Positions 12,559 through 31,375 of a DNA stretch of 64,000 nucleotides are shown piece by piece (within the stretch, counting starts at the first letter, position 1; every line of letters begins with the position of its first letter). The stretch is from Rhodanobacter sp. FW104-R8. Its GTDB lineage: Bacteria; Pseudomonadota; Gammaproteobacteria; Xanthomonadales; Rhodanobacteraceae. The notes beneath the pieces were generated by a model. It was not told the DNA's origin, searched no databases, and saw only the letters and a list, made by a program, of their open reading frames with translations. Location: NCBI RefSeq assembly GCF_001617365.1, contig NZ_LVJR01000023.1, positions 1 through 64,000 of the forward strand, written 5' to 3'. The position numbers and the translations under genes are program-made.

Positions 12559-12867
12559 TTACACCTTTAAATAATCCTCACAGGCCACAATGAGTTCGCG
12601 TACCTCGGGTTCGCCGGCATCGGTACGCGCCAGAAGTATCGCGCGAAGCTGCGAAATCTGGTCGTTGTTCGGGATCAACTCCGACGGGCTTTCCCACATC
12701 CAGTCGACCACGATCGGGAGGAGTTTGGCGGCAGAAAGGGTAGCTACTTCCTGCCGAGTCGGGACATACATGCCCGCCCGAAAAACCGGGCTATTCACGC
12801 CGTGGCTTTTCCGGGCGGCCTTGAACGCACTGTCTGGCATGCCAAAGCGGTCGTCGGGGTCAGTCAT
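12559..12867 (-). CDS. orf102: conserved small protein coupled to the tnpS recombinase (function unknown)
   Basis: A 102-aa protein starting MTDPDDRFGMPDSAFKAA. I do not recognise a domain. Its ATG overlaps the recombinase stop as ATGA (12864-12867). A second copy, about 80% identical by eye, sits in the same coupled position behind the second recombinase (31067-31375). The double occurrence with the same overlap shows this is a real, selected gene of the resolution module rather than cargo. Motifs visible are FRAGMYVPTR and WMWESPSELIP. A role as accessory factor for the recombinase is possible but unproven. Confidence 0.85.
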   Translation of the reverse strand: MTDPDDRFGMPDSAFKAARKSHGVNSPVFRAGMYVPTRQEVATLSAAKLLPIVVDWMWESPSELIPNNDQISQLRAILLARTDAGEPEVRELIVACEDYLKV

Positions 12868-14027
12868 GGCACGTCTCCGTGGGACACCGATGGCTCGATG
12901 CGTGGCTTCGTGGTGCTGGCATGTCGCGCATCCTCTTCCGCATGAATATAGATCGAGGTCGTACCAATGGAGCTGTGACGCAGATTCTGCTGGATGTGGT
13001 GGATCGGGGTGCCGTCCTCGGCCTGGTGCGTGGCGGCCGTATGCCGCAGCCAATGGGTCGAGGCCCGCCGCACCCGCGCGGCTTGGGCACCATCGTGCTT
13101 TTGCAGCTCGTCGGCCACGCGCCGGAAGGTGTCCTTGACGATCTGGTAGACCGCCGTGGGTGTCAGCGGGGAAGACCGTCCGGCGATGCCCAGAATGGCC
13201 GGGGCTGTGCCGTCGCCCGAAGGCAACGCCGGCAGTCCATGGAAGCGCCGATAGCGTGCAAAGTCTTCCATGAGACCGTCGCTTAGGGGAATCGTGCCCT
13301 CGACGCCGCCTTTCCCCACGGTATGCAGCCACCACCGGCCACGAATAGGCTGAAAATCGCCCTCGCTGGCGGCCGCGGCTTCGGCGGCCCGCAAGGCGGT
13401 TTCATAGAGAAAGCGAAGGATCCAGCGAACGCGTTCGTAGCGCTGCCGTTCCCGCGCAGTTGTCTGTGGCCAGCCGTCGACGACGCGTAGCACCTGGTCC
13501 CAGAGGGCACGGTCCAGGTAGCGTTCGATCGTGCGGCGGGGGCCGCGGCGTGCCCGTCGGCGCTGCAGCACAAACGGACTGCCCGCGAGATAGCCAGCGC
13601 GCACGAGGTAATTGAACAGCCCCGCCAGGATGCCCAAGGCCTGCCGGCGACTGCGCTCGGCCAGCGGCCCGATGAACAGTCGCCGATGCTCACCGCGACG
13701 GGCGAGACCGGCGTCGCACCAGGTCGCCGGTGGCTGGGCAAGAAACGCCTCATAGGCGATGACATCCTCGCGGGTGAGACTGGACACCGGCTTGCCACGC
13801 ACTTGGGTGGCCCAAAGCAGCAATCGCTCGGCCTCCTTGCGGTAGCTGCGGAAGGTATGCGGCGAGTCGTGATATTCCGCCAGCCACAGGCCGATCGCGG
13901 CCACGTCGTCGTTGGCGGCGATCTGCCGCGCCACACTGGCCGGTGCGCGGTTGGTGCCGACACCTCCCGACAGGGCGGGCGGCAAGGCTTGGGGCAACGC
14001 CAAAAGGGTCACTGCAGGCTCAGTCAT
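12864..14027 (-). CDS. tnpS: tyrosine recombinase (TnpS-type cointegrate resolvase), copy 1
   Basis: Site-specific tyrosine recombinase of 387 aa. It has an N-terminal SAM-like DNA-binding domain (IAANDDVAAIGLWLAEYHDS..., residues 35-130) and a C-terminal catalytic domain. Catalytic residues are visible: Arg in FLYETALRAAEA, Lys in GKGG, HWLRHTAATH (HxxR), the late His in LRHSSIGTTS and the nucleophile Tyr in SIYIHAEED. It is divergent from a KfrA-like coiled-coil gene across a 168-bp region with inverted repeats, the arrangement of tnpS/tnpT in Tn4651-type transposons, where the pair resolves cointegrates. It might instead be annotated as a plain phage-type integrase, but the partner gene argues for TnpS. 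Confidence 0.88.
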   Translation of the reverse strand: MTEPAVTLLALPQALPPALSGGVGTNRAPASVARQIAANDDVAAIGLWLAEYHDSPHTFRSYRKEAERLLLWATQVRGKPVSSLTREDVIAYEAFLAQPPATWCDAGLARRGEHRRLFIGPLAERSRRQALGILAGLFNYLVRAGYLAGSPFVLQRRRARRGPRRTIERYLDRALWDQVLRVVDGWPQTTARERQRYERVRWILRFLYETALRAAEAAAASEGDFQPIRGRWWLHTVGKGGVEGTIPLSDGLMEDFARYRRFHGLPALPSGDGTAPAILGIAGRSSPLTPTAVYQIVKDTFRRVADELQKHDGAQAARVRRASTHWLRHTAATHQAEDGTPIHHIQQNLRHSSIGTTSIYIHAEEDARHASTTKPRIEPSVSHGDVP

Positions 14028-14195
14028 GCTTTCCGATGTCCGACGCCACGGAAAACACAGCGTACTGCCAAAAGACTTTCGATTATAGGAGTTATCGTAA
14101 ATTTCTTGATTTAATCATTACGTATATAACGTAATACTATGATATACATTCTCTTATCCTTCGAAATTGACCCTCCGAGCGACTGGGAATTTGCC
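14028..14195. other. resolution site (rst/res) between tnpS and tnpT, copy 1
   Basis: An AT-rich 168-bp intergenic region in otherwise GC-rich DNA. It contains an inverted repeat ATTACGT-5 nt-ACGTAAT (14117-14135) and flanking AT-rich segments (14081-14115, 14136-14152). About 65 bp recur nearly unchanged, in opposite orientation, in the second tnpT/tnpS intergenic region (29786-29865). Conservation of a noncoding stretch between two diverged gene copies marks it as the recombinase core and operator region; both divergent promoters must lie here too. Confidence 0.75.
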
Positions 14196-15203
14196 ATGAG
14201 CCGTGTCAGCGATACCCGTCAGCGTACCCGTGAAGCCGCCGCCCAACTCGTTGCCGGTGCGAAGCGGCCGCACGAAATCACCGTCGACCAGATCTACGCC
14301 GTCATCCAGCAAGGCAGCCGTACGACGATCAATGACGAGCTGAAGCAGTGGAAGGACGAACGTACGAAGGCCGATGCGCTCGGTGCTGATCTCCCGGCTG
14401 CTGTGGCCGACGCCATGCGTGCCCTGTGGGTGGTGGCCGTCGAACAGGGCGAGGTGGTGTTCGCCGAACAGCGGAGCACTTTGGAAGCTGCCGTGGCAGA
14501 TGCGGAGCAGCAGCACGCTACGGTTACGCAGGCGCGCGACGACGCATTGGCGACCTCAACGACACTGACCGAACAGTGCGAAACACTTCGACAGCAGATC
14601 ACCACGCTGCAAACGCGAGTGGAGTTCGAGGCCACCGCGAAGAATCAAGCGCTTCAGGATGGCCAGGCACTGCAGCAGAAACTCATCGCACTCCAGACCG
14701 ACACCGCCGAACAGATCGAACGCATCCGTCAAGCGCAAACTGACCAGGCCGAAGAATTCCAAGCCGTGATTGCGAGCCGGGATGCGGCTTTTCAGGTCGA
14801 ACGTGATACAGCGAACGAGCGGCTGGAGGCCGCCCAAGCCCGCATGCTGCAGGAGATCGATACAGCTCGCGAAGGCCAGCGGCGCGCAGAACAGCAGATG
14901 GTCAAAACGCGAGAACGACTGGAGCGACAACAAGCCAGTTTGGCGGAGCTGCGCACCGAAGCAGGACATCACCGTCGTGAACTGGCCGAGCGTGATACCC
15001 GCTTGGGGGCATTGGCCGCGGCTGTCGCGGATCGCGATCGCATGGCCATCGAACTGGCCGCAGCTCGCGGGCAATTGGAAGGTTTGGGAACGGCGATGCA
15101 GTCGCTCGAAACTCGGGCTATCACCGCCGAGTCGCGTATCAGTACGCTGCTGGACGAACGGAAGTCGCCAGCAACGCCTCGGAAGAAACAGGGCAAGAAG
15201 TGA
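14196..15203 (+). CDS. tnpT: KfrA-like coiled-coil DNA-binding protein (TnpT), copy 1
   Basis: A 335-aa protein. It has an N-terminal KfrA-type winged DNA-binding domain (VSDTRQRTREAAAQLVAG...ITVDQIYAVIQQGSRTTINDELKQWK, residues 3-55), then an almost continuous Gln/Glu/Arg/Ala-rich coiled coil to residue about 315 and a Lys-rich tail. In Tn4651-type transposons TnpT binds the resolution region and helps the TnpS recombinase. I start at the ATG at 14196 because the second copy starts with the same MSRVSDTRQRT; an upstream in-frame ATG at 14139 lies in the conserved res region. This copy is full length, the other is truncated. Confidence 0.85.
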   Translation: MSRVSDTRQRTREAAAQLVAGAKRPHEITVDQIYAVIQQGSRTTINDELKQWKDERTKADALGADLPAAVADAMRALWVVAVEQGEVVFAEQRSTLEAAVADAEQQHATVTQARDDALATSTTLTEQCETLRQQITTLQTRVEFEATAKNQALQDGQALQQKLIALQTDTAEQIERIRQAQTDQAEEFQAVIASRDAAFQVERDTANERLEAAQARMLQEIDTAREGQRRAEQQMVKTRERLERQQASLAELRTEAGHHRRELAERDTRLGALAAAVADRDRMAIELAAARGQLEGLGTAMQSLETRAITAESRISTLLDERKSPATPRKKQGKK

Positions 15204-17707: not shown

Positions 17708-18085
17708 TTACTTCCGACGGACGTCGAGCAGCGCTTCGAGGTTGACAGCGATCGTGGACGCAAGGCGCTTGGCCTGGATGGCGGCGTGCCCGCGGAATTG
17801 CTCGTCCACGGTTGCCACAAATAACGCCAACCACCGCTGAAAGTGGTGGTGGTGCAAGGAATGTCGCGTGTGCAGCGCCATGTGCTGGGCAATCATGTTG
17901 CGTCGATAGCCCTCATGGTCACCGAGCAGCATCTTGCGCCAATACGCGCGAATCTTTGGTATATGTTGCTGCAGGTCAACGTCTTTGAAGATCGGTCCAA
18001 GCGCGGCATCAACCCTCACCTTGGCGTAAAAGGCGTCCACGAAGTCGGCAATGGCCTCCGGTGAGTTCAGTTCACGCGAATCCAT
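17708..18085 (-). CDS. group III truncated haemoglobin
   Basis: A 125-aa haem protein of the truncated 2-over-2 globin family. Visible landmarks are FYAKVRVDAALGPIF (helix B/C region), WRKMLLGDHEGYRRN, the proximal-His segment ALHTRHSLHHHHFQRWLALF and the C-terminal helix IAVNLEALLDV. Group III members are linked to NO or peroxide chemistry and to reductase partners. It is immediately followed (11 bp) by a flavin disulfide reductase and lies 87 bp after merE, so it appears co-transcribed with the mer operon. I start at the ATG at 18085; an earlier in-frame ATG at 18151 would add 22 residues without family similarity. Confidence 0.83.
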   Translation of the reverse strand: MDSRELNSPEAIADFVDAFYAKVRVDAALGPIFKDVDLQQHIPKIRAYWRKMLLGDHEGYRRNMIAQHMALHTRHSLHHHHFQRWLALFVATVDEQFRGHAAIQAKRLASTIAVNLEALLDVRRK

Positions 18086-18172
18086 GGCGATCGTTTTCAC
18101 CTGGCGCTCAAGGGCATGCGGATGCGTCCGATCGGCCCTCGACGAATTCAAGCCGGCCGTGCATCAAACCGC

Positions 18173-18391
18173 TCATACGCGTCCTCCAAACGCACGTATC
18201 GCCCGCCACACGGATAGCCCGAACAAGCTGATCAACCCCAGTGCCGCGATGACCCAGTGCGCACTGAAAAAGGCGCCGGCCGTCGTACCCGCCAAGAGCG
18301 CGGCCAGGATCGGGAGGTGACACGGGCACGTCAGCACAGCCAGCCCGGCCCACAGGTAACCCGTGATGGATTTGCGCTCGTGACCGTTCAT
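18173..18391 (-). CDS. merE: MerE mercury transport membrane protein
   Basis: A 72-aa protein with two membrane segments and the hallmark TCPCHLPILAALLAGTTAGAF motif, matching MerE of Tn21/Tn501-type operons almost residue for residue in the core (KSITGYLWAGLAVL). MerE moves Hg(II)/organomercury across the inner membrane. Its ATG overlaps the merD stop as ATGA (18388-18391), the classical merD-merE coupling. Confidence 0.95.
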   Translation of the reverse strand: MNGHERKSITGYLWAGLAVLTCPCHLPILAALLAGTTAGAFFSAHWVIAALGLISLFGLSVWRAIRAFGGRV

Positions 18392-18753
18392 CGCCGTGCC
18401 TCTTCGTGTCGACCAACCTCTGCCCGCAGCGCGCTCAATTGCGCCTCCAACCCCACCAATGCCTGCCGCCGCTCATCGACGATTCCGCCTACCTCTGCCA
18501 GGCACATCACCGTCTTATCGGCATTCGATGCATCCAGCGACCGGCACAGTCGCGTCACGACGTCCAGGCCGACCCCTGCCTCGACCGCGGACCGCACGAA
18601 ACAAAGCCGGTGCAGGGCGTTCGCGTCGAACACGCCATAACCTCCATCGGTGCGCGCGGCCGGATGCAGCAGCCCGCGCACCAGGTAGTCACGCACGATA
18701 TGCACGCTCACGCCGGCGTCTTTAGCCAGCTGTGACACGGTGTAGGCGTTCAT
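18388..18753 (-). CDS. merD: MerD co-regulator of the mer operon
   Basis: A 121-aa MerR-like regulator: MNAYTVSQLAKDAGVSVHIVRDYLVRGLL is the canonical MerD N-terminal helix-turn-helix, followed by GGYGVFDANALHRLCFVRSAVEAGVGL. MerD antagonises MerR activation to switch the operon off after mercury is gone. The start at 18753 matches MerD proteins; an upstream in-frame ATG lies in the merA tail. Only 16 bp separate it from the merA stop. Confidence 0.95.
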   Translation of the reverse strand: MNAYTVSQLAKDAGVSVHIVRDYLVRGLLHPAARTDGGYGVFDANALHRLCFVRSAVEAGVGLDVVTRLCRSLDASNADKTVMCLAEVGGIVDERRQALVGLEAQLSALRAEVGRHEEARR

Positions 18754-18769
18754 CGAACACCCCGTCTCC

Positions 18770-20599
<1,830 letters not shown>

Positions 20600-20701
20600 T
20601 TAGCAGCAATAGGGCACCACGACGATCAACAAAAGCACGATGCCGATGACGATCGCGGCCGTGATGAGGTCGGTTTTCTTGGCACTCAGCCATGCTTTCA
20701 T
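20600..20701 (-). CDS. 33-aa single-pass membrane peptide with terminal Cys pair, between merC and merA
   Basis: A very small reading frame: MKAWLSAKKTDLITAAIVIG, a hydrophobic IVLLLIVVVP stretch, and C-terminal YCC. It is predicted as a single membrane helix with an adjacent cysteine pair at the end, the kind of vicinal thiol used by mercury transporters. A CGGAG lies 9 nt before the ATG at 20701; an ATG three codons earlier is the alternative. It occupies an otherwise unexplained 298-bp gap between merC and merA. It is not MerF, which has two helices and two Cys pairs. Function unknown; a mercury-relay role is an inference. Confidence 0.5.
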   Translation of the reverse strand: MKAWLSAKKTDLITAAIVIGIVLLLIVVVPYCC

Positions 20702-20792
20702 GGGTGTCATCTCCGATAGGGTGATCCAACGAACGCCGGTACTCCACGGGGTTTGATCCCACATCTCCACCCGCGGAAGGTGGGGTGAGTGT

Positions 20793-21200
20793 TCAACAGC
20801 AGGCGTCGTCTCGCTTCGCACCGCGGTGCCCCTTTCCCGGCGGCGATACCAGATCCCAGATGGATACCGCGACCATCAAGACCAGCCCGGGATAGAGCAG
20901 CCACGCCGCCATGCGCAAGGCCCCGATCAGCACCAAGACCGGTCCGATCACGCCAAGGGCCATGCGTAACCACTGCCGATGACGGAAGCCGGCGATCCCG
21001 TTGGCAAGCAAGGCGACCATCGCAAACAGTGGCAGCAAGTAATGGATGAATACGCCCTCGTACTGGCTCAGAAAGCCCAATCCGATCGCGGCGCCCAGGC
21101 TGGCGAGTGCAGGAAAGCAAGCAGCGCATCCCATCGCTGTGACGATGGCCCCGATTACGCCCGCTTTGTCGGCGGTGCGTGTGAGTGGAGTGAGAGACAT
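20793..21200 (-). CDS. merC: MerC inner-membrane mercury transporter
   Basis: A 135-aa membrane protein with four hydrophobic segments. The MerC signature ADKAGVIGAIVTAMGCAACF is present and provides the Hg(II)-binding Cys pair; FLSQYEGVFIHYLLPLFA and a C-terminal Cys pair (DDACC) follow. MerC provides a second uptake route in parallel to MerT. The ATG at 21200 has a GAGG about 8 nt upstream. It sits 19 bp after merP. Confidence 0.94.
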   Translation of the reverse strand: MSLTPLTRTADKAGVIGAIVTAMGCAACFPALASLGAAIGLGFLSQYEGVFIHYLLPLFAMVALLANGIAGFRHRQWLRMALGVIGPVLVLIGALRMAAWLLYPGLVLMVAVSIWDLVSPPGKGHRGAKRDDACC

Positions 21201-21219
21201 GGGAATGACCTCGGGCGCT

Positions 21220-21498
21220 TCAATTCTTAACGGTGGAGGGGTAGCCCGCATCCGTCGTGGCGCTGACGAGTGCCCGGGTGCTGGTCTTGGCATCATCGAA
21301 GGTCACAACGGCTTCCTTCTTGTCGAACAGGATCTCGGTCTTTTCGACACCGGGAACCTGGGACAGCGCTTTCTTGACGGTGATGGGACATGCGGCACAC
21401 GTCATACCGGACACCGACAGGGTGGCGGTCTTCGTAGCCGCCCAGGCAGGCGCGGAAATGGCGGTGGCAAGGACGATGAGAGCGGCAAGTTTCTTCAT
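21220..21498 (-). CDS. merP: MerP periplasmic mercury-binding protein
   Basis: A 92-aa precursor with a signal peptide (MKKLAALIVLATAISAPAWA) and one HMA domain with the metal site SGMTCAACPITVKKAL. MerP captures periplasmic Hg(II) and hands it to MerT. It lies 19 bp downstream of merT in the standard order. Confidence 0.97.
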   Translation of the reverse strand: MKKLAALIVLATAISAPAWAATKTATLSVSGMTCAACPITVKKALSQVPGVEKTEILFDKKEAVVTFDDAKTSTRALVSATTDAGYPSTVKN

Positions 21499-21517
21499 GG
21501 GTGGATCCTCCGACGGG

Positions 21518-21880
21518 TCAGTAAAACAGCGTGGCGAGATAGGGAAAGGTCAGCGCCACGAGCACCAGGGCTGCGACGATCCAGAACAAGACTTTGTAGG
21601 TGGTCCTGACCTGCGGCACAGCGCAGACGTCACCAGGCGCGCACGCCGTAGCAGGCCGGTAGATGCGTCGCCAGGCGAAGACCATCGCGATCAGCGCTGC
21701 ACCGATAAAGTACGGGCGGTACGGCTCAAGCACAGTCAGGTTGCCGATCCAGGCGCCACTGAACCCAAGGGCGACCAAGACCAGGGGACCAAGGCAACAG
21801 GTCGACGCCAGTAGTGCGGTGATACCCCCGGCCAGAAGAGCGCCGGAACCTGTTTTCTTGACGACTTGGGTATTTTTCAT
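21518..21880 (-). CDS. merT: MerT inner-membrane mercury transporter
   Basis: A 120-aa protein with three membrane helices. The first helix carries the Hg-binding pair in LLASTCCLGPLVLVALGFSG, followed by AWIGNLTVLEPYRPYFIG, and the cytoplasmic loop has a second Cys pair (TACAPGDVC). MerT brings Hg(II) to MerA in the cytosol. First gene of the mer structural operon, 36 bp from the promoter's -10 element. Confidence 0.97.
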   Translation of the reverse strand: MKNTQVVKKTGSGALLAGGITALLASTCCLGPLVLVALGFSGAWIGNLTVLEPYRPYFIGAALIAMVFAWRRIYRPATACAPGDVCAVPQVRTTYKVLFWIVAALVLVALTFPYLATLFY

Positions 21881-21916
21881 GGAGGGCTCTGCGTGGATGG
21901 GGGCGACTATGGGAGC

Positions 21917-21947
21917 ACTCTATTCGCGTACTTAGGTACAGAGTCAA
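21917..21947 (-). promoter_or_regulatory. MerR-type promoter/operator P1 driving merTPC-A-D-E
   Basis: On the minus strand: -35 TTGACT (21942-21947), 19-bp spacer (21923-21941) containing the dyad GTACCTAAGTAC, and -10 TAGAGT (21917-21922). The over-long 19-bp spacer with GTAC-N4-GTAC is the hallmark of MerR-activated promoters and matches the layout of the Tn501 mer promoter. Confidence 0.9.
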
Positions 21948-21965
21948 GCGCAAGAATTTTTAGCG

Positions 21966-22715
21966 TCAACCCGCTGCAATCAGTTGGTGCTTCAGCAGAC
22001 TGCGCAGACAAACCGCGAGATCGAATGCTCCGTCGATGGCCCGAGCCGCCGCATACGCGGCCTCCAGATCACGCGTATCGATCAGCGCGGCGATGCAGGC
22101 GAAGCTCGCTGCGTCCAGCACGGTCATCGCCACCTCGCCGCCGTCACGCCACAACACGACCTGTTCGCCGCGACCATCCAGCTGCAGCCGCTCGCCTTCG
22201 GGGGCGGTGGCGTAACGCCAGATCGTCAGCACCGGATGCGTACTGCCCAGCAGGCGCACGCTGGGATGCAACCGCCAGGACAACGATGTCGTGTCATCGA
22301 GCGTGGCCGGAGCCAGTGGCGATGCTTCAGCGGCCAGTGCGGACTGCTGGCGTAGCCACTCCAACTGCGCCACATCAGGCAAATAGGCAAGTGCTGCCGC
22401 TTCGGGCATCGTGGCCAGAAACGCGGCGAAGGCGCCGCCGAACGCCTGCAGGTTGCCGCGCGTCGACGGATGATGCAGGCGATAGCGCGTCGCTGCGGCC
22501 TCGAAGAAGGCCTCGCCGACCAGCGCTTGCACCGCGGGGTACGTGGCGCGCAGCGTTTCGATCTGCGTACTGGCGATGGCGTTGCCGTACACCTGCAACC
22601 GTGCAGCGGGGGCGAGGCCGGCACCGACAACCCACTGCGCGAGGTCACTGCCGCGATCGAGCACGGCGTTGGCGAAACCGCGTTGCAACTCAAGCAATGT
22701 GGGTGCGGTGACCAT
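21966..22715 (-). CDS. bufC: BufC-like DUF2063 (MbnC-type) partner protein
   Basis: A 249-aa protein with an N-terminal DUF2063 domain (LLELQRGFANAVLDRG...RLQVYGNAIASTQIETLRATYPAVQALVG, residues 5-60) and HHPSTRGNLQAFGGAFAAFL. In bufferin and methanobactin-like systems this partner binds the DUF692 enzyme and presents the precursor peptide. It overlaps the end of bufB by 26 bp, so translation is coupled. I start at the ATG at 22715 (MVTAPTLLELQ). The order bufA-bufB-bufC is the canonical bufferin order; the next genes downstream are the mer structural operon. Confidence 0.85.
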   Translation of the reverse strand: MVTAPTLLELQRGFANAVLDRGSDLAQWVVGAGLAPAARLQVYGNAIASTQIETLRATYPAVQALVGEAFFEAAATRYRLHHPSTRGNLQAFGGAFAAFLATMPEAAALAYLPDVAQLEWLRQQSALAAEASPLAPATLDDTTSLSWRLHPSVRLLGSTHPVLTIWRYATAPEGERLQLDGRGEQVVLWRDGGEVAMTVLDAASFACIAALIDTRDLEAAYAAARAIDGAFDLAVCLRSLLKHQLIAAG

Positions 22716-23562
22716 TGAGCAGGGCCTCCGCGCGGCCGGCTTCCGCCAGCAACACCTCAAGTTCGGGGATGTCCTGATCCCACTCAATCAGGGTGGGTAC
22801 GGGGCCGAACAGATCCAGTGCCCCGGCATAAAGCGCCCAGACTTCGGCATCCACCGGCCGGCTGTGGCTGTCGATCAATAGCGGTACCGCGAGATCGGTC
22901 TTGCGAATAAATCCACCCAAGTGGATCTCGCGCACCGCCGCGCGCGGCATCGCACGCAGATAGGCATGCGCGTCGAAGCCGTGATTGACGCTGTTGACGT
23001 AGACATTGTTGACGTCGAGCAACAGGCCGCAGCCACTGCGACGTATCAATTCGGCGACGAACTCCCACTCGCTCATCTCGGCGTGTTGGAACGTGAGATA
23101 GCTGGAAACGTTCTCGACCAGGAACTCGCGGCCCAGCGCGTCCTGCACCTGCTGCACGCGCGTCACTATCAGGTCCAGCGCCTCCCGGGTGAACGGTAGC
23201 GGCAGCAGGTCGTTGAGGTGGATGCCGCCGATCGCGCCCCAGCAAATGTGATCGGAGACCAGCCCCGGTTCGAAGCGTTGCACCAGCGCACACAGCGTCG
23301 CCAGATGCTCGTCGTCGAATGTGTCGGCTGATCCCAGCGAGAGGCCGACACCGTGCAGGCTCAGCGGATAGTCGGCGCGCACATGCTCGATCGCCGCATG
23401 CAGTGCTCCGCCGTCGGCAAACAAATTCTCACTGTGCACCTCGAACCACGCCACGCGCGGACGTTCGCTCAACACCCGCTGCATGTGTGGCGCACGCAGA
23501 CCGATCCCGACTCCAGAAGGAGCCGAGATCGGTGGCGCCGCGAGCGTGCTCGCGTCGTGCAT
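22690..23562 (-). CDS. bufB: BufB-like DUF692 multinuclear iron enzyme (RiPP maturase)
   Basis: A 290-aa TIM-barrel enzyme of the DUF692/MbnB family, which modifies Cys residues in RiPP precursors with a bi- or trinuclear iron centre. Conserved ligand motifs are all visible: FEVHSENL, SLHGVGLSLG, VSDHICWG...HLNDLLPLPFT, VENVSSYLTF, LLLDVNNVYVN, EIHLGGF, DSHSRPVDAEVW and IEWDQDIP. Length equals the family norm. The start (23562) is 11 bp after the bufA stop. In bufferin systems this enzyme converts precursor cysteines into metal-binding heterocycles; the chemistry on this precursor is inferred. Confidence 0.92.
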   Translation of the reverse strand: MHDASTLAAPPISAPSGVGIGLRAPHMQRVLSERPRVAWFEVHSENLFADGGALHAAIEHVRADYPLSLHGVGLSLGSADTFDDEHLATLCALVQRFEPGLVSDHICWGAIGGIHLNDLLPLPFTREALDLIVTRVQQVQDALGREFLVENVSSYLTFQHAEMSEWEFVAELIRRSGCGLLLDVNNVYVNSVNHGFDAHAYLRAMPRAAVREIHLGGFIRKTDLAVPLLIDSHSRPVDAEVWALYAGALDLFGPVPTLIEWDQDIPELEVLLAEAGRAEALLNGHRTHIA

Positions 23563-23573
23563 CGTGGTGTTGC

Positions 23574-23858
23574 TCAGCCCTTCTGTGCCGGTTCGAGTTT
23601 GCCGCCGTCGATCTTCTCGCACAAGCCCTTGGGCACCGCGACGAAAGAGTTTGGATCGCGGGCCTTGGTGTCCTGGCTGGCGCAGGAGTGGCCTGCTGCT
23701 TTGCAGTCGTTCTTCTGCGCAGCGTTGATGCCGTAACACTTCTCCATATGACTCATTGACATCGGTTTGCTCTGCATGCCTGCGGCCGCTGCGACTGTGG
23801 TCAGACCCAACGTGAGTCCTCCCGCCAGAACGGATTTCAGAATCGATGCGGTATTCAT
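23574..23858 (-). CDS. bufA: BufA-type DUF2282 bufferin precursor (ribosomally synthesised metallophore)
   Basis: A 94-aa precursor. Residues 1-26 are a signal peptide (ILKSVLAGGLTLGLTTVAAAA). The core has four conserved cysteines in the DUF2282 pattern: MEKCYGI, KNDCKAAGHSCAS and PKGLCEKIDGGK. GGAGAG lies 6 nt before the ATG at 23858. With the DUF692 and DUF2063 genes directly behind it, this is a complete bufferin cassette: precursor, iron enzyme, partner. Bufferins described elsewhere buffer excess copper in the periplasm. Here the gene follows a MerR-type promoter and lies inside a mercury operon, so Hg(II) capture by the modified peptide is the obvious hypothesis, not a shown fact. Confidence 0.88.
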   Translation of the reverse strand: MNTASILKSVLAGGLTLGLTTVAAAAGMQSKPMSMSHMEKCYGINAAQKNDCKAAGHSCASQDTKARDPNSFVAVPKGLCEKIDGGKLEPAQKG

Positions 23859-23877
23859 TCTCAACTCTCCAGTACGT

Positions 23878-23896
23878 GGCCAGAAACACTCTGGCC
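23878..23896 (-). promoter_or_regulatory. leader hairpin upstream of bufA
   Basis: Perfect 7-bp inverted repeat GGCCAGA / TCTGGCC with a 5-nt loop in the roughly 140-nt untranslated leader between promoter P2 and bufA, ending 19 nt before the start codon. It could stabilise the mRNA or tune translation of the precursor relative to bufB and bufC. Confidence 0.4.
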
Positions 23897-24004
23897 TTCT
23901 TTGAAAATGACAATCGGTAACCCATGCAGAAACTTTCCCGTGTCGACCAGCAGCCATCCTCATCTTCGAACCGCGCGTCCGGTCAATCTCCGCCCATGGC
24001 GCAG

Positions 24005-24035
24005 AGCCTACTGCCGTACTTCGGTACGACATCAA
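24005..24035 (-). promoter_or_regulatory. MerR-type promoter/operator P2 driving bufABC
   Basis: On the minus strand: -35 TTGATG (24030-24035), 19-bp spacer (24011-24029) with dyad GTACCGAAGTAC, and -10 TAGGCT (24005-24010). The spacer length and GTAC-N4-GTAC dyad are the same as in the merT promoter of this window, and the next gene downstream is bufA. Confidence 0.8.
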
Positions 24036-24074
24036 GCGTGGATTGCCAAGACCGCGGGAGCCTTGACCGACGTC

Positions 24075-24296
24075 CTACTGCCCATCGTGGCTCGGCCTGA
24101 GATGGAAGGTCGGATGTGCGCATGCGATTTCCGTGATGATGTCGCTTAGCAGCTGGCGTGCTTCCTGCTCGCAGCCTCCGCAGCCACCCGAGCAGCCGGT
24201 GAGCCACTGCAATGCTTCGAAACTGCGCACCCCGGCCACCACCGCGTGGCGAATGTCCTCCTCGGTCACGCTGTGGCACACGCAAACGTCAGTCAT
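24075..24296 (-). CDS. BFD-type [2Fe-2S] ferredoxin-like protein
   Basis: A 73-aa protein with the bacterioferritin-associated-ferredoxin fold signature: MTDVCVCHSVTEEDIRHAV with CxC near the start and GCSGGCGGCEQEARQLL with the CxxC pair later. Such proteins hold a [2Fe-2S] cluster and shuttle electrons or iron. It lies in the mercury-controlled leftward unit between promoter P3 and promoter P2. A role in supplying electrons or iron to the DUF692 iron enzyme is possible by position only. The ATG at 24296 directly precedes the conserved part. Confidence 0.8.
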   Translation of the reverse strand: MTDVCVCHSVTEEDIRHAVVAGVRSFEALQWLTGCSGGCGGCEQEARQLLSDIITEIACAHPTFHLRPSHDGQ

Positions 24297-24407
24297 GATC
24301 CAACTCGCGTGGCGGAGCCGTCCTGTCGTAGCCTGAGACGCGGCGGATCGCAGATGTCGGTCCTGAAGCACGGAGTCGTACCCACGATCTGACGCGAAGT
24401 CGGCACG

Positions 24408-25001
24408 TCAACCCGCGGCCTCGGGCAGGAGCGCAGCGGGCGTCAACCACGCCTCCAGCTGCGGCAGCGCGTTCGGTCCGAGATGCTGCTGGAATGTGTT
24501 TCGCGCCACCCCGAGTAGCCGGGCAAGTCGAGCTTCGATAGGCAAGGCCTCGTCTGCCACAAGAACCTCTAGCAGCGCACACGCGAGATCGCATTGCAGC
24601 GCGGCCCCATCGGGCAACGGAACGCGTGCTTGCGACAGCCGCTGGACGAGACGGGCGGCCATGGTGTGCGCCTCCTCCTGACTGAGCTGATCGACCGTCT
24701 CGCGCCGGTACCAGTATGAAGGGTTCGGAAATGTGGCAAGCAACGCCGACGCCGTCGTGGCAGCTACCAAAGCAACCTGGCTGTCACCGCCGAGGGCAGC
24801 ACGCAGGAGGCCGACCTGCTGGTCGACCCGAAGCTCACGCAGCCATTTGATCGCGATCACGTCACCGCGATGGTGCAGCCAAACCTCTGCAATATCAGGA
24901 TGAACCTCCAGGCGTGCCAAAACGGGTTTGGCAAGGCACCCGCAACCGATCTGCGGCACCGCCTCGCACACGAGCGGCACCGTGTAGAAGTGAATGAACA
25001 C
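24408..25001 (-). CDS. unknown protein with Cys motif, first gene after MerR promoter P3
   Basis: I do not recognise this family. The protein is about 197 aa, mostly helical, Ala/Leu-rich, with cysteines near the N-terminus (VCEAVPQIGCGCLAKP) and two in the middle (LQCDLACALLEVLVA). The start must lie downstream of promoter P3, whose -10 is at 25031-25036. The GTG at 25001 fits, with GGGAG 6 nt upstream, and gives MFIHFYTVPLVCEAVPQ. In-frame ATGs at 25079 and 25049 lie upstream of or within the promoter. It is not MerB: length is similar but the MerB Cys/Asp catalytic pattern is absent. Its promoter marks it as a mercury-induced gene. Confidence 0.7.
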   Translation of the reverse strand: MFIHFYTVPLVCEAVPQIGCGCLAKPVLARLEVHPDIAEVWLHHRGDVIAIKWLRELRVDQQVGLLRAALGGDSQVALVAATTASALLATFPNPSYWYRRETVDQLSQEEAHTMAARLVQRLSQARVPLPDGAALQCDLACALLEVLVADEALPIEARLARLLGVARNTFQQHLGPNALPQLEAWLTPAALLPEAAG

Positions 25002-25030
25002 GAACGTCTCCCAGGGGGTGAGGTGGGTGT

Positions 25031-25061
25031 ACGCTATGTCCGTAGTCATGTACGGAGTCAA
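25031..25061 (-). promoter_or_regulatory. MerR-type promoter/operator P3 (divergent from merR)
   Basis: On the minus strand: -35 TTGACT (25056-25061), 19-bp spacer (25037-25055) beginning CCGTACATGACTACGGA, -10 TAGCGT (25031-25036). The left half (TTGACTCCGTACATGA) resembles the Tn501 operator closely; the dyad is imperfect on one side (GTAC/CTAC). It lies next to the merR start, as expected for an autoregulated divergent mer operator. Confidence 0.88.
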
Positions 25062-25066
25062 TGGGT

Positions 25067-25474
25067 ATGGGGAAGCCATCGGAACAACTGACCATCGGTG
25101 CGTTTGCCAAAGCCGCGGGGGTCAACCTGGAAACCATCCGGTTTTATCAGCGCAAGGGGCTGCTTCCGGAACCGGACAAACCCTATGGCAGCATCCGCCG
25201 CTATGGTGATACCGATGTCGCTCGTGTGAAATTCATCAAGTCAGCGCAGCGTTTGGGCTTCAGCCTCGACGAAGTCGCACAGTTGCTCGCCCTGGAGGAC
25301 GGCACCCATTGCAGTGAGGCGGCACAATTCGCCGCGCAGCACCTGGCCGACGTGCGGGGACGCCTGAAAGACCTCAAGCGCATGGAAACCGTACTGGCTC
25401 GATTGGTCGCGCAATGTCATTCGCATCGCGGCACCATTACCTGCCCCCTCATCGCCTCCCTGCATGGCCGTTGA
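25067..25474 (+). CDS. merR: MerR mercury-responsive transcriptional regulator
   Basis: A 135-aa regulator. Winged helix-turn-helix [20 protein letters not shown] (residues about 8-27), then [27 protein letters not shown] and a dimerisation helix. The three Hg(II) ligands are present: GTHCSEA, VAQCHSH and TITCPLI, with the 8-residue Cys-x8-Cys spacing of Tn501 MerR. It is therefore mercury-specific rather than a CueR or ZntR. I start at the ATG at 25067 (GGAG 9 nt upstream); an ATG at 25061 overlaps the -35 of P3. It is the only merR in the window and would control P1, P2 and P3. Confidence 0.95.
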
Positions 25475-25551
25475 GACGTCCTGCCGGCGACGCCTGACAG
25501 CCTGGCGCACTCTTTGGTGGATCAGCCGGACATGAAGGCAAGCTGTTCGCC

Positions 25552-25570
25552 GGCTTATCGGCAATGCCCC
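25552..25570 (-). repeat. possible degenerate Tn3-type terminal repeat end
   Basis: Minus strand reads GGGGCATTGCCGATAAG, similar to the GGGGnnnTGCCnGnATAAG outer part of the 15226-15263 repeat with a small gap. As there, a reading frame from the other side stops at its TAA. No mate was found, so the assignment is tentative. Confidence 0.3.
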
Positions 25571-26190
25571 GTCAGCAGCCGCGTGATGCGCGACCGAAAC
25601 TGGTCAGGGGTCAACGTCGTGATCGGTTCGCGCTGCGGCCATACCTTCAGGATGGCGGCTCGGAAATTGGCGGGCGTGCTGCCTTGCTCGGGACCAATGA
25701 TGTAGGTCGGCACCGTGGTGACCGCGTAGTGCGGGTACATCTGCCGCGCGACGTCTTCGAACCGACCATGATCGGTGGCGCCTTCGGCAAACACCAGCAA
25801 AGCCACCCATGCACCGCAGCGGTCGCAACGCACTTCTTCGACGGGGATGGTGCCGCCGGGCAGCGAGTGCTTTGCCGCCAAGGGTGGTGGTGGCGTACTG
25901 CTCGGACCGCGAATGGACTCCAGCGCCGTCACGATCTGGTGCGACAGGGGTTCCAATATCGCGCGCCGCTGGGCAAACATCGCCTCCCGTTCGTCGCCGG
26001 CGATGTCGGTGACCACGCAGGTTTCGCCGGACGCGGTACCTGTGACGCGCAGGCGTCCCAACTCCCCCAGTTCGGCGTGCCGAAAGACGTAGGCGATACC
26101 GTCCGGCAAAGGGTCGCGGTGAAAGGACACATCCGGTGGCAGCTTTAATCCGGCAGCCGCTTCGGCGGGCGATTTGCGTTGGGAGGTCAT
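25555..26190 (-). CDS. unknown protein downstream of tnpA (211 aa)
   Basis: I do not recognise a family. The N-terminal half is rich in charged residues (DVSFHRDPLPDGIAYVFRHA, then LGELGRLRVTG). A CxxC pair lies in VRCDRCGAWVALLVFAEGA, followed by MYPHYAVTTVPTYIIGPEQG and a C-terminal helix. The gene is 39 bp downstream of the Tn3-family transposase stop and in the same direction, so it may belong to that element. Its stop TAA falls inside a transposon-end-like GGGGCATTGCCGATAAG, so the C-terminus could be truncated. Confidence 0.6.
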   Translation of the reverse strand: MTSQRKSPAEAAAGLKLPPDVSFHRDPLPDGIAYVFRHAELGELGRLRVTGTASGETCVVTDIAGDEREAMFAQRRAILEPLSHQIVTALESIRGPSSTPPPPLAAKHSLPGGTIPVEEVRCDRCGAWVALLVFAEGATDHGRFEDVARQMYPHYAVTTVPTYIIGPEQGSTPANFRAAILKVWPQREPITTLTPDQFRSRITRLLTGHCR

Positions 26191-26229
26191 GCGGGATTCC
26201 GTGCGAACGCGTGGCGGCTTCCAACGACG

Positions 26230-29304: not shown

Positions 29305-29739
29305 CTAAAACAAGGTGACACCTTGCTGCGCGGCAACTTCATGTCGAAGTGTTTCGCACTGTTCGGTCAGTGCTGTCGCCATCTCCATGGCATCGGCGCG
29401 CGTTTGCAGGGCTGCATTCCGCTGCTGCTCGGCCTCCGCCAAAGCGGTCTCCAAGGCGCCCCGCTGTTCGGCAAATACCGCTTCGCCCTGCTCGACAGCG
29501 GACACCCACAGGGTGCGCATCGCATCGGCCACAGCGGCCGGGAGATCGGCGCCGAGGGCGTCCGCTTTTGTACGTTCGTCCTTCCACAGCTTCAACTCGT
29601 CATTGATCGTCGTGCGGCTGCCCTGCTGGATGGCCGTATAGATCTGGTCGACCGTGATTTCGTGGGGTCGTTTGCCGCCGACAACGAGCTGGGCAGCGGC
29701 TTCGCGGGTACGTTGGCGGGTATCACTGACACGGCTCAT
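29305..29739 (-). pseudogene. truncated KfrA-like tnpT, copy 2
   Basis: The first 140 or so codons match tnpT copy 1 closely (MSRVSDTRQRTREAAAQLV, ITVDQIYTAIQQGSRTTIND, GADLPAAVADAMRTLW) up to LTEQCETLR. The sequence then diverges into HEVAAQQGVTLF and stops. About 60% of the coiled coil is missing. The DNA-binding domain remains, so a truncated protein could still bind the res site. The break lies near 29320-29335, on the side of the Tn3-family transposase gene. Confidence 0.85.
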
Positions 29740-29906
29740 GGGCATTCTCAGTTGCTGGCGGGTCAATTTCGCAGGATATGAATCATGTATATCATAGTAT
29801 TACGTTATATGTGTAATGATTAAATCAAGAAAGTTATGATAATCCCTATAATCGAAAGTAATTCAGCAGTACGCTGGTGGTCCCGCGGCATTGGACATCG
29901 GAAAGC
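29740..29906. other. resolution site (rst/res) between tnpT and tnpS, copy 2
   Basis: AT-rich 167-bp intergenic region with inverted repeat ATTACGT-5 nt-GTGTAAT (29799-29817). The segment about 29786-29865 is nearly identical to the reverse complement of the copy-1 site, including the conserved GATTAAATCAAGAAA and CTATAATCGAAAGT blocks. Its orientation relative to copy 1 is inverted. Confidence 0.75.
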
Positions 29907-31070
29907 ATGACTGAACATCCTTTGAGCCTCGCCGTACCCCAGGCCCTGCCTCCTGTCCTGTCGGGATGCGCCGGAACCAACCGTGCTCCGGCGAACGTGG
30001 CCCGACAGATTGCGGCCAATGACGACGTGGCGGCGATCGGCCTGTGGCTGGCGGAATATCACGACTCGCCCCATACCTTTCGCAGCTACCGCAAGGAGGC
30101 AGAACGGCTGCTGCTCTGGGCCACGCAAATACGTGGCAAGCCGGTGTCGAGCCTCACCCGCGAGGATGTGATCGCCTACGAAGCATTTCTCTGCCATCCG
30201 CCCGCCACTTGGTGCGACGACAGTCTGGCCCGTCGTGGTGAGCATCGGCGCCTGTTCACGGGACCATTGGCCGAGCGCAGCCGACGTCAGGCCTTGGGCA
30301 TCCTCGCAGGGCTGTTCAACTATCTCGTACGCGCCGGCTATCTCGCCGGCAGTCCGTTTGTGCTGCAGCGGCGACGGGCGCGTCGCGGGATGCCCCGTGC
30401 TATCGAGCGCTATCTGGACCGATCCCTTTGGGACGACGTGCTTCACAGCATCGACGGTTGGCCACGGTCGACGAACCGGGATTGCCAACGCTACGAACGC
30501 GCTCGTTGGGTACTGCGTTTCCTGTACGAAACGGCTTTACGGGCTTCCGAGGCCGCCGCGGCCTGCGAGAGCGATTTCCAGCGCGTTCGTGGTCGGTGGT
30601 GGCTCCATGTCGTGGGCAAAGGCGGCGTCGAGGGTCAGATCCCCCTCAGCGACCATCTCATGGAGGATTTCGCGCGCTATCGCGGCTTCCATGGGTTGCC
30701 GCCCGCGCCGGCCGACAATGGCAAGATACCGGCCATTCTGGGGATCGCCGGCCGCGCTTCTGCGCTCACTCCCACGGCGATCTATCAGATCGTCAAGGCC
30801 ACCTTCCGGCATGTTGCGGATACGCTCCAAAAGGAAGATGCCGCCAAAGCCTCCCGAGTGCGGCGGGCGTCGACTCATTGGCTACGGCATACGGCCGCCA
30901 CGCATCAGGCCGAAGACGGAACACCGATCCACCACATCCAGCAGAATCTTCGCCACAGCTCGATCGGCACGACATCGATTTACCTCCACGCAGAAGAAGA
31001 TTCACGGCATGCAAGCACAACGAGAACGCGAGCCGACGCCTCGCAGCAAAGAGAAGGAGACCTGCCATGA
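29907..31070 (+). CDS. tnpS: tyrosine recombinase (TnpS-type), copy 2
   Basis: A 387-aa recombinase closely related to copy 1 (about 80% identical by eye). All catalytic residues are visible: Arg in YETALRASEA, Lys in GKGG, HWLRHTAATH, late His in LRHSSIGTTS and Tyr in SIYLHAEED. I start at the ATG at 29907 because it aligns with the copy-1 start (MTE...); an upstream in-frame start at 29877 falls in the promoter region. It appears intact although its partner tnpT is truncated; it could use the intact TnpT copy in trans. Confidence 0.88.
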   Translation: MTEHPLSLAVPQALPPVLSGCAGTNRAPANVARQIAANDDVAAIGLWLAEYHDSPHTFRSYRKEAERLLLWATQIRGKPVSSLTREDVIAYEAFLCHPPATWCDDSLARRGEHRRLFTGPLAERSRRQALGILAGLFNYLVRAGYLAGSPFVLQRRRARRGMPRAIERYLDRSLWDDVLHSIDGWPRSTNRDCQRYERARWVLRFLYETALRASEAAAACESDFQRVRGRWWLHVVGKGGVEGQIPLSDHLMEDFARYRGFHGLPPAPADNGKIPAILGIAGRASALTPTAIYQIVKATFRHVADTLQKEDAAKASRVRRASTHWLRHTAATHQAEDGTPIHHIQQNLRHSSIGTTSIYLHAEEDSRHASTTRTRADASQQREGDLP

Positions 31071-31375
31071 CTGACCCCGACGATCGTTTCGGCATGCCCG
31101 CCAGTGCTTTCAAGGCGGCCAGGGAAAGTCATGGGCTGGATAGCCCCGTTTTTCGGGCGGGCATGTATGTACCCACCCGGCATGAAGTGGCCACGTTGTC
31201 TGCCACCCAACTTTTGCCGATCGTGATCGACTGGATGTGGGAAAGTCCGTCCGAACTGATTCCAGACAATAAACAGATTGGGGAACTTCGCGCCCTGCTG
31301 GCGGCCCGTCCTGATGCGGATGAGCCGACACTGCGAGAACTCATCACCGCGTGTGATGATTATTTGAAAATTTGA
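31067..31375 (+). CDS. orf102 copy 2, coupled to tnpS (function unknown)
   Basis: A 102-aa protein beginning MTDPDDRFGMPASAFKAARE, about 80% identical by eye to the product of 12559-12867. Its ATG overlaps the tnpS stop as ATGA exactly as in copy 1. The substitutions between the copies are mostly conservative (V/L, D/N, K/E, I/V), which indicates purifying selection. No domain recognised. Confidence 0.85.
   Translation: MTDPDDRFGMPASAFKAARESHGLDSPVFRAGMYVPTRHEVATLSATQLLPIVIDWMWESPSELIPDNKQIGELRALLAARPDADEPTLRELITACDDYLKI

Follow-up and report, generated by a model that had tools for sequence, protein, structure and literature searches.

We analysed the window, a stretch of 64,000 nucleotides from contig NZ_LVJR01000023.1 of Rhodanobacter sp. 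FW104-R8, and describe a peptide operon that lies within its mercury resistance (mer) operon. The three genes, bufABC, encode a type-1 bufferin with its maturation proteins, and sit at 21966-23858 on the minus strand with merR on one side and merT on the other. They are preceded by a MerR-type promoter, here termed P_buf, and are very probably under MerR control. We lean towards a reading in which a type-1 bufferin operon has been captured by the mer operon, is controlled by MerR, and makes a product that buffers periplasmic Hg(II). In what follows, G, C and L numbers denote genomes, contigs and loci; the window genome is G000, a Rhodanobacter genome of 3.72 Mb, and the window lies on contig C23.

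A complete bufferin operon inside the mer operon

Judged by sequence, positions 21966-23858 make up an entire type-1 bufferin operon, as an earlier note on this DNA had proposed. The genes follow the canonical order, and BufA, BufB and BufC all exceed the Pfam cut-offs for their families (PF10048, PF05114 and PF09836; Table 1). BufB also scores 381.6 bits against NCBIfam NF050167 (MNIO_BufB), for which the cut-off is 310, and matches PDB entry 3bww (E 1.5e-39). The note's description of the precursor and of the gene junctions was equally accurate. BufA carries cysteines at positions 41, 52, 59 and 80, all four invariant in an alignment of six sequences (the window and five relatives), and a Sec-type signal peptide, MNTASILKSVLAGGLTLGLTTVAAAA, recognized by eye only; the junctions measure an 11-bp gap between bufA and bufB and a 26-bp overlap between bufB and bufC. 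The founding case of type-1 (DUF2282) bufferins is Caulobacter. Like type-1 bufferin operons including gigPABT, the window operon combines a DUF2282 precursor that has a signal peptide and four cysteines, a DUF692 enzyme and a DUF2063 partner, in identical order.

Reading from merR along the minus strand, the order is unnamed gene, bfd-like gene, bufA, bufB, bufC, merT, merP, merC, merA, merD and merE. The span given in the earlier note omits the unnamed and bfd-like genes, both of which lie between it and merR. Copies of the cassette occur on two named plasmids, and genome G386 has three. Positions 18000-26200 are 100% identical to plasmid NZ_CP088926.1 of R. denitrificans FW104-MT042 (L003) and 96.7% identical to plasmid NZ_CP088981.1 of FW104-R5; the latter encodes the same BufA and BufB as the window, whereas identity is 94% for MerA and 80% for MerC. 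Both plasmid carriers are isolates from Tennessee wells.

A MerR-type promoter before bufA

Promoters of the MerR regulon share a 19-bp spacer with a GTAC-N4-GTAC-type dyad, and in Tn501/Tn21-type mer operons merR is divergent from the mer operon and the MerR promoters have this 19-bp spacer. The consensus agrees with the mer promoters among the loci that we fetched. The window resembles Tn501/Tn21-type operons in its divergent merR and 19-bp-spacer promoters; what sets it apart is a bfd-bufABC insert and a total of three MerR-type promoters.

We searched with the pattern TTGANNNNGTACNNNNSTACNNNNNTA, of the form TTGA-N4-GTAC-N4-STAC-N5-TA. The whole genome (3.72 Mb) holds four matches. Three are in the island (before merT, bufA and the unnamed gene), and contig C28 has the fourth, at a second mer operon. 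Reversing the pattern leaves no match. Another 1.63 Mb of fetched loci (cassette copies excluded; some loci overlap) gave ten matches at mer loci only, nine directly before mer genes and one before a small gene of the PtrA-domain type, with merR 0.5 kb away. This restriction to mer loci, together with the empty reversed control, argues that the P_buf site does not arise by chance, and the earlier note's likening of P_buf to the merT promoter is upheld. It is very improbable that the site is a coincidence or serves another member of the MerR family: its -35 and -10 hexamers are unlike those of the other mer promoters seen, but all four genomic matches stand at mer operons, and the merR gene 1 kb away is of the mercury type. 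The encoded MerR aligns over almost its full length with the MerR in PDB entry 5crl (E 8.2e-60) and has Cys82, Cys117 and Cys126, which we take to be the mercury ligands.

A MerR-type promoter also precedes the gene for a small PtrA-domain protein beside merR on the P. mandelii JR-1 plasmid (L106:9183-9455); this is possibly a further accessory mer gene.

The placement of such a site before bufA is restricted to one cassette. We scored the upstream regions of 101 bufA tblastn matches (some loci are duplicated or contribute several matches) and found a MerR-type site only in the six copies of the window cassette, which score 16.5 of 18.3; the next best score is 12.5. Three rows at contig starts (L029, L037 and L038) were scanned over most of the locus and score at most 11.8. 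A sigma-70 scan of 21400-25600 returned one weak match (24891-24920, chance level) and none directly upstream of bufA, and terminator-like and sigma-70-like sites showed no excess over shuffled sequence. The promoter divergent from merR possibly reads on into bufABC. As for P_buf being a duplicate of P_merT, an upstream CGCTTGA stretch is common to both and too short to decide.

Origin of the bufferin block

Sister cassettes lacking the bufferin genes exist within the genus. In two mer cassettes of Rhodanobacter G110 (L020 and L021), which are 83-85% identical to the window cassette in DNA over the common parts, P_merT and merT directly follow the unnamed gene, and bfd and buf genes are absent. 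Either one line therefore gained about 2.45 kb, comprising bfd, P_buf and bufABC, or the other lost it.

We placed the window protein in a BufB tree (n = 87; bootstrap not fully settled). Two chromosomal BufB proteins of Rhodanobacter are its sisters (support 99/93), and it belongs to a set of ten (support 100/97); L012 and L013 stand outside the tree because bufB is split over both. A doxX match follows bufC in eight of the nine other set members (L005, L011, L015, L025, L026, L027, L028 and L034), and the contig of the ninth, L032, stops about 0.1 kb past bufC. With L012, which also has a doxX match, there are nine doxX operons in total, those of the two chromosomal sisters among them. Eight of these have a sigma factor match: the query from L005 finds seven (L005, L011, L012, L015, L025, L026 and L028), L034 matches a different sigma query, and L027 has no match. 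Pfam assigns the L005 and L015 genes to the extracytoplasmic function (ECF) type, and two chromosomal Rhodanobacter operons (L121 and L122) likewise have doxX and sigma genes. A label-clustering test on the tree was weak, with 77 rows unlabelled, L057 included.

Type-1 bufferin operons have ties to copper and gold and often include doxX and ECF sigma/anti-sigma genes (frequent accessory genes, which are not in every bufferin cluster), whereas the 64-kb window has no tblastn match to two DoxX, two sigma and one anti-sigma queries and has a MerR-type promoter. Given relatives with doxX and an ECF sigma gene and a window without a match to either, control would have passed from the ECF sigma factor to MerR. 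The simplest reading of these comparisons is that an operon of the Rhodanobacter type was taken into the mer operon and exchanged ECF-sigma control for MerR control.

A diverged copy and selection

We searched 45 Rhodanobacter genomes with the stretch from P_buf to bufA (727 positions). Full-length matches occur once in G000 and three times in G386, and genome G794 matches over 1-725 of 727 at 92% identity; all others cover the bufA core or bfd only. In G794, the contig (L119, 3.7 kb) retains the order unnamed gene, bfd, bufA, bufB, bufC, merT and merP. Its P_buf has changed at 2 of 31 positions and at none of 14 core positions of our choosing, whereas the remainder of the spacer between bfd and bufA differs in 36 of 188 alignment columns; this contrast is not significant on its own (Fisher p 0.12). 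Against this copy, the ratio of nonsynonymous to synonymous substitution rates (dN/dS) is 0.155 for bufA, 0.118 for bufB, 0.309 for bufC, 0.443 for bfd and 0.306 for merT; by these values, bufA and bufB are under purifying selection.

These results bear on the idea that the bufferin operon is a passenger with no part in mercury resistance, its MerR promoter inherited by duplication and doing little. Loose neighbourhoods of bufferin and mer genes in other metal islands would fit that idea, as would the bufferin-less cassette versions, but the block lies inside the mer operon, not beside it, the buf genes have dN/dS values of 0.12-0.31, and the site is intact in the 92% copy; we consider the idea improbable. 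The earlier note had placed the operon in a mer island. The association is closer still: a diverged copy retains the site, doxX and ECF sigma matches are lacking, and sister cassettes without the bufferin exist, which supports integration into the mer operon rather than a mere neighbourhood.

How common are mer-linked bufferins?

Among the best 80 BufB loci from genome contigs, with flanks of up to 10 kb, at least seven have mer-like genes in the flanks (L028, L032, L043, L055, L057, L058 and L070); the count is a lower bound because several contigs are short. We did not count as mer the MerA-like matches of about 32-33% near buf genes (L005, L011, L012, L025, L068, L072, L091, L121 and L122), and rejected that of L005 as a VTT-domain/pyridine nucleotide oxidoreductase. 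L097, with weak merR and merP matches, was also kept out. In L032 (Castellaniella), merA and merR are divergent and about 1.2 kb separate the end of merR from bufA, an interval in which we read one gene-like open reading frame (ORF) from the sequence. A gene of L055 reads as a copper-type ATPase.

In L058:7400-12100 (Paraburkholderia) and L070:7650-12100 (Collimonas), bufABC is divergent from two genes read as ECF sigma and anti-sigma; beyond these lie merT and merP in L058 and merP in L070. The two loci appear to represent another type of association between bufferin and mer genes, one that lacks a MerR-type site. The L058 sigma query is 34% identical to the annotated sigma factor of plasmid pMR68.

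Genome samples give a sense of frequency. Of 398 genomes of the order, 85 have MerT, 67 have DUF2282 and 19 have both; these 19 hold 26 DUF2282 places, of which five have MerT within 10 kb, versus 0.30 expected at random. The five places represent three genomes and two lineages, and three of them are the G386 copies. In a phylum sample, DUF2282 occurs in 102 of 398 genomes. Setting the window genome aside, we screened 80 of the remaining 101 for MerT, which is present in 12; by the listed coordinates, none of the 80 has MerT within 25 kb of DUF2282, and contig breaks may hide some. Mer-linked bufferins are thus uncommon in the sampled genomes, and we saw MerR control of a bufferin in the window cassette alone. 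Recurrence of the association is limited.

Two further leads were set aside. The chromosomal buf genes and the second mer operon lie about 17 kb apart (G000, G374 and G386), and do not form one operon; with an ECF sigma gene by buf, we treat them as a loose neighbourhood. A search for bufferins in viral contigs gave 16 pattern stretches and no relatives.

Proposed role and the metal question

We propose that Hg(II)-MerR would activate P_buf and the upstream divergent promoter, so that entry of Hg(II) into the cell would trigger synthesis of BufA, BufB and BufC. In type-1 bufferins the central cysteines become thiooxazoles and the outer pair forms a disulphide. In the cytosol, BufB and BufC would turn the two central BufA cysteines into thiooxazoles, after which Sec would export the modified peptide. 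In the periplasm, the product would bind Hg(II) and lower the free ion ahead of import by MerP/MerT and reduction by MerA. We infer modification, export and mercury induction by analogy with known families. Whether Hg(II) is the biological ligand of the BufA product is, in our judgement, evenly balanced. The fuller proposal of a dedicated mercury bufferin, that is, an Hg(II)-induced, MNIO-modified periplasmic Hg(II) buffer, rewired from an ECF sigma factor to MerR with loss of doxX and perhaps helped by the BFD-like protein, is one that we hold tentatively.

Several observations weigh against a mercury role. The four-cysteine core of BufA resembles that of relatives outside mer operons, and the six-sequence alignment reveals no mercury-specific change. 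The MerR-controlled form is confined to one lineage, and the conservation of P_buf is suggestive only. Bufferin-type MNIO genes also occur in copper islands, with mer nearby (P. mandelii plasmid; L055) or with no mer in the stretch seen (P. kurunegalensis plasmid); it is therefore possible that a copper role was imported together with metal resistance.

The leading rival explanation builds on this point: the operon would be induced by MerR, and its product, a copper (or gold) bufferin, would handle Cu(I) displaced by Hg(II) or arriving with mercury in mixed waste. The unchanged BufA core would suit a copper peptide, bufferins are described as copper-stress peptides (PMC12452194), gig operons respond to copper and gold (PMC10304878), and the two named copies are from Tennessee wells. 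Yet merR and merD are the only annotated regulators in the merR-merE stretch, the window has no ECF sigma match, and the sole sigma-70 candidate is the weak one away from bufA. We judge this explanation unlikely, and retain mercury buffering as the working proposal.

Relation to known systems

Antoine et al. 2025 (PMC12452194) describe Buf1 and Buf2 bufferins that bind copper through thiooxazoles, and name the gig operons as bufferin clusters. They report a small number of fusions, MerC-Buf1 and MerC-Buf2, within mercury clusters, and propose that bufferins may also serve with further metals. The gigPABT operon of Cupriavidus metallidurans is induced by copper and gold and has a divergent ECF sigma gene (PMC10304878). 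Like the fusions, the window places a bufferin domain in a mercury resistance setting; there the bufferin is joined to the MerC transporter, whereas the window has a free precursor, its own maturation genes and a MerR-type promoter. Our search for plasmid-borne fusions with a joined MerC and BufA-core query gave two of 3589 records at 80% cover or more; both matches overran the merC stop and were rejected.

With these fusions in print, the general idea of a link between bufferins and mercury is already known. The open-licence PMC literature, where absence is not proof, yielded no account of a bufferin operon under MerR control. The proposal of the earlier note is accordingly less new than it claimed. 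The stem "mercur" is absent from the excerpts of PMC13097082 and PMC12538549. For Rhodanobacter, earlier papers place mercuric transport genes on genomic islands (PMC8809349), cite mobile mercury genes (PMC11128244) and report genomes from mercury-treated soil (PMC4415585); the word DUF692 does not occur in the excerpts of the first two.

Neighbouring genes and the island

Table 1. Features of the mer-bufferin cassette in window coordinates
Feature	Coordinates	Strand	Description and evidence
merD and merE	18173..18753	-	annotation in L003
merA	18770..20494	-	annotation in identical plasmid copy L003
merC	20793..21212	-	NF033784, 178.5 bits, cut-off 140; L003 start annotated at equivalent of 21200
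merP	21220..21498	-	TIGR02052, 139 bits, cut-off 92.55
merT	21518..21880	-	PF02411, E 2.8e-55
P_merT	21917..21947	-	MerR-type promoter before merTPCADE; pattern match
bufC	21966..22715	-	DUF2063 partner protein; PF09836, E 1.5e-20
bufB	22690..23562	-	MNIO (DUF692) maturase; PF05114 (MbnB_TglH_ChrH), E 9.6e-107
bufA	23574..23858	-	type-1 bufferin precursor, 94 aa; PF10048 (DUF2282), E 1.7e-20
P_buf	24005..24035	-	MerR-type promoter, 146 bp before bufA; -35 TTGATG, 19-bp spacer with GTAC-CGAA-GTAC, -10 TAGGCT
bfd-like	24075..24296	-	[2Fe-2S] protein, in inserted block, upstream of P_buf; PF04324, E 2.5e-13
unnamed gene	24408..25001, ORF to 25079	-	WP_153021737.1 in identical plasmid copy; CEAVPQIGCGCLAKP motif
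promoter divergent from merR	25031..25061	-	MerR-type; pattern match; reads into unnamed gene and bfd
merR	25067..25474	+	Hg(II)-type activator; TIGR02051, 171.9 bits, cut-off 150.85

The bfd-like gene has no match in the bufferin-less cassettes L020 and L021, nor in the best 80 BufB loci. As a conjecture, its [2Fe-2S] product might support the iron enzyme BufB. The unnamed gene is also present in the bufferin-less cassettes. Its protein carries the motif C-x3-P-x-I-x-C-G-x-LAKP, matches no Pfam family above cut-off, and occurs in one of 200 phylum genomes, its own. The structure model has a mean pLDDT (predicted local distance difference test) of 51 and suggests, with low confidence, a beta-alpha-beta-beta-alpha-beta N-terminus. 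A relative is encoded on plasmid pMR68 of Pseudomonas K-62 (L105:5902-6603), where the neighbours are sigma-70-family, DUF1109, merT-type and cation transporter genes.

Beyond merE lie a truncated haemoglobin gene and then a flavin adenine dinucleotide (FAD) oxidoreductase gene. Near the island edge, an ORF at 15246-16286 matches an L003 gene annotated as a CBASS (cyclic-oligonucleotide-based antiphage signalling system) phospholipase. Imperfect inverted repeats of about 2 kb (79%) flank the island at 12566-14593 and 29342-31368, and overlap integrase-like and DNA-binding-protein-like ORFs. In G386, three near-identical copies of the mer-bufferin cassette (L007, L008 and L009) share one contig; the cassette is therefore probably mobile.

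What a MerR-controlled bufferin would mean

Bufferins, described as copper-stress peptides, are suspected of a wider metal range. A site for MerR, a well-understood regulator that responds to mercury, in front of a bufferin operon amounts to a natural experiment on that range: its inducer is established, environmental isolates are the named carriers, and one genus holds sister cassettes both with the bufferin block and without it. The arrangement suggests that such peptides may be usable against mercury, beyond the defence against copper. If the proposed role is true, mercury resistance would gain a step of extracytoplasmic sequestration beside transport and reduction.

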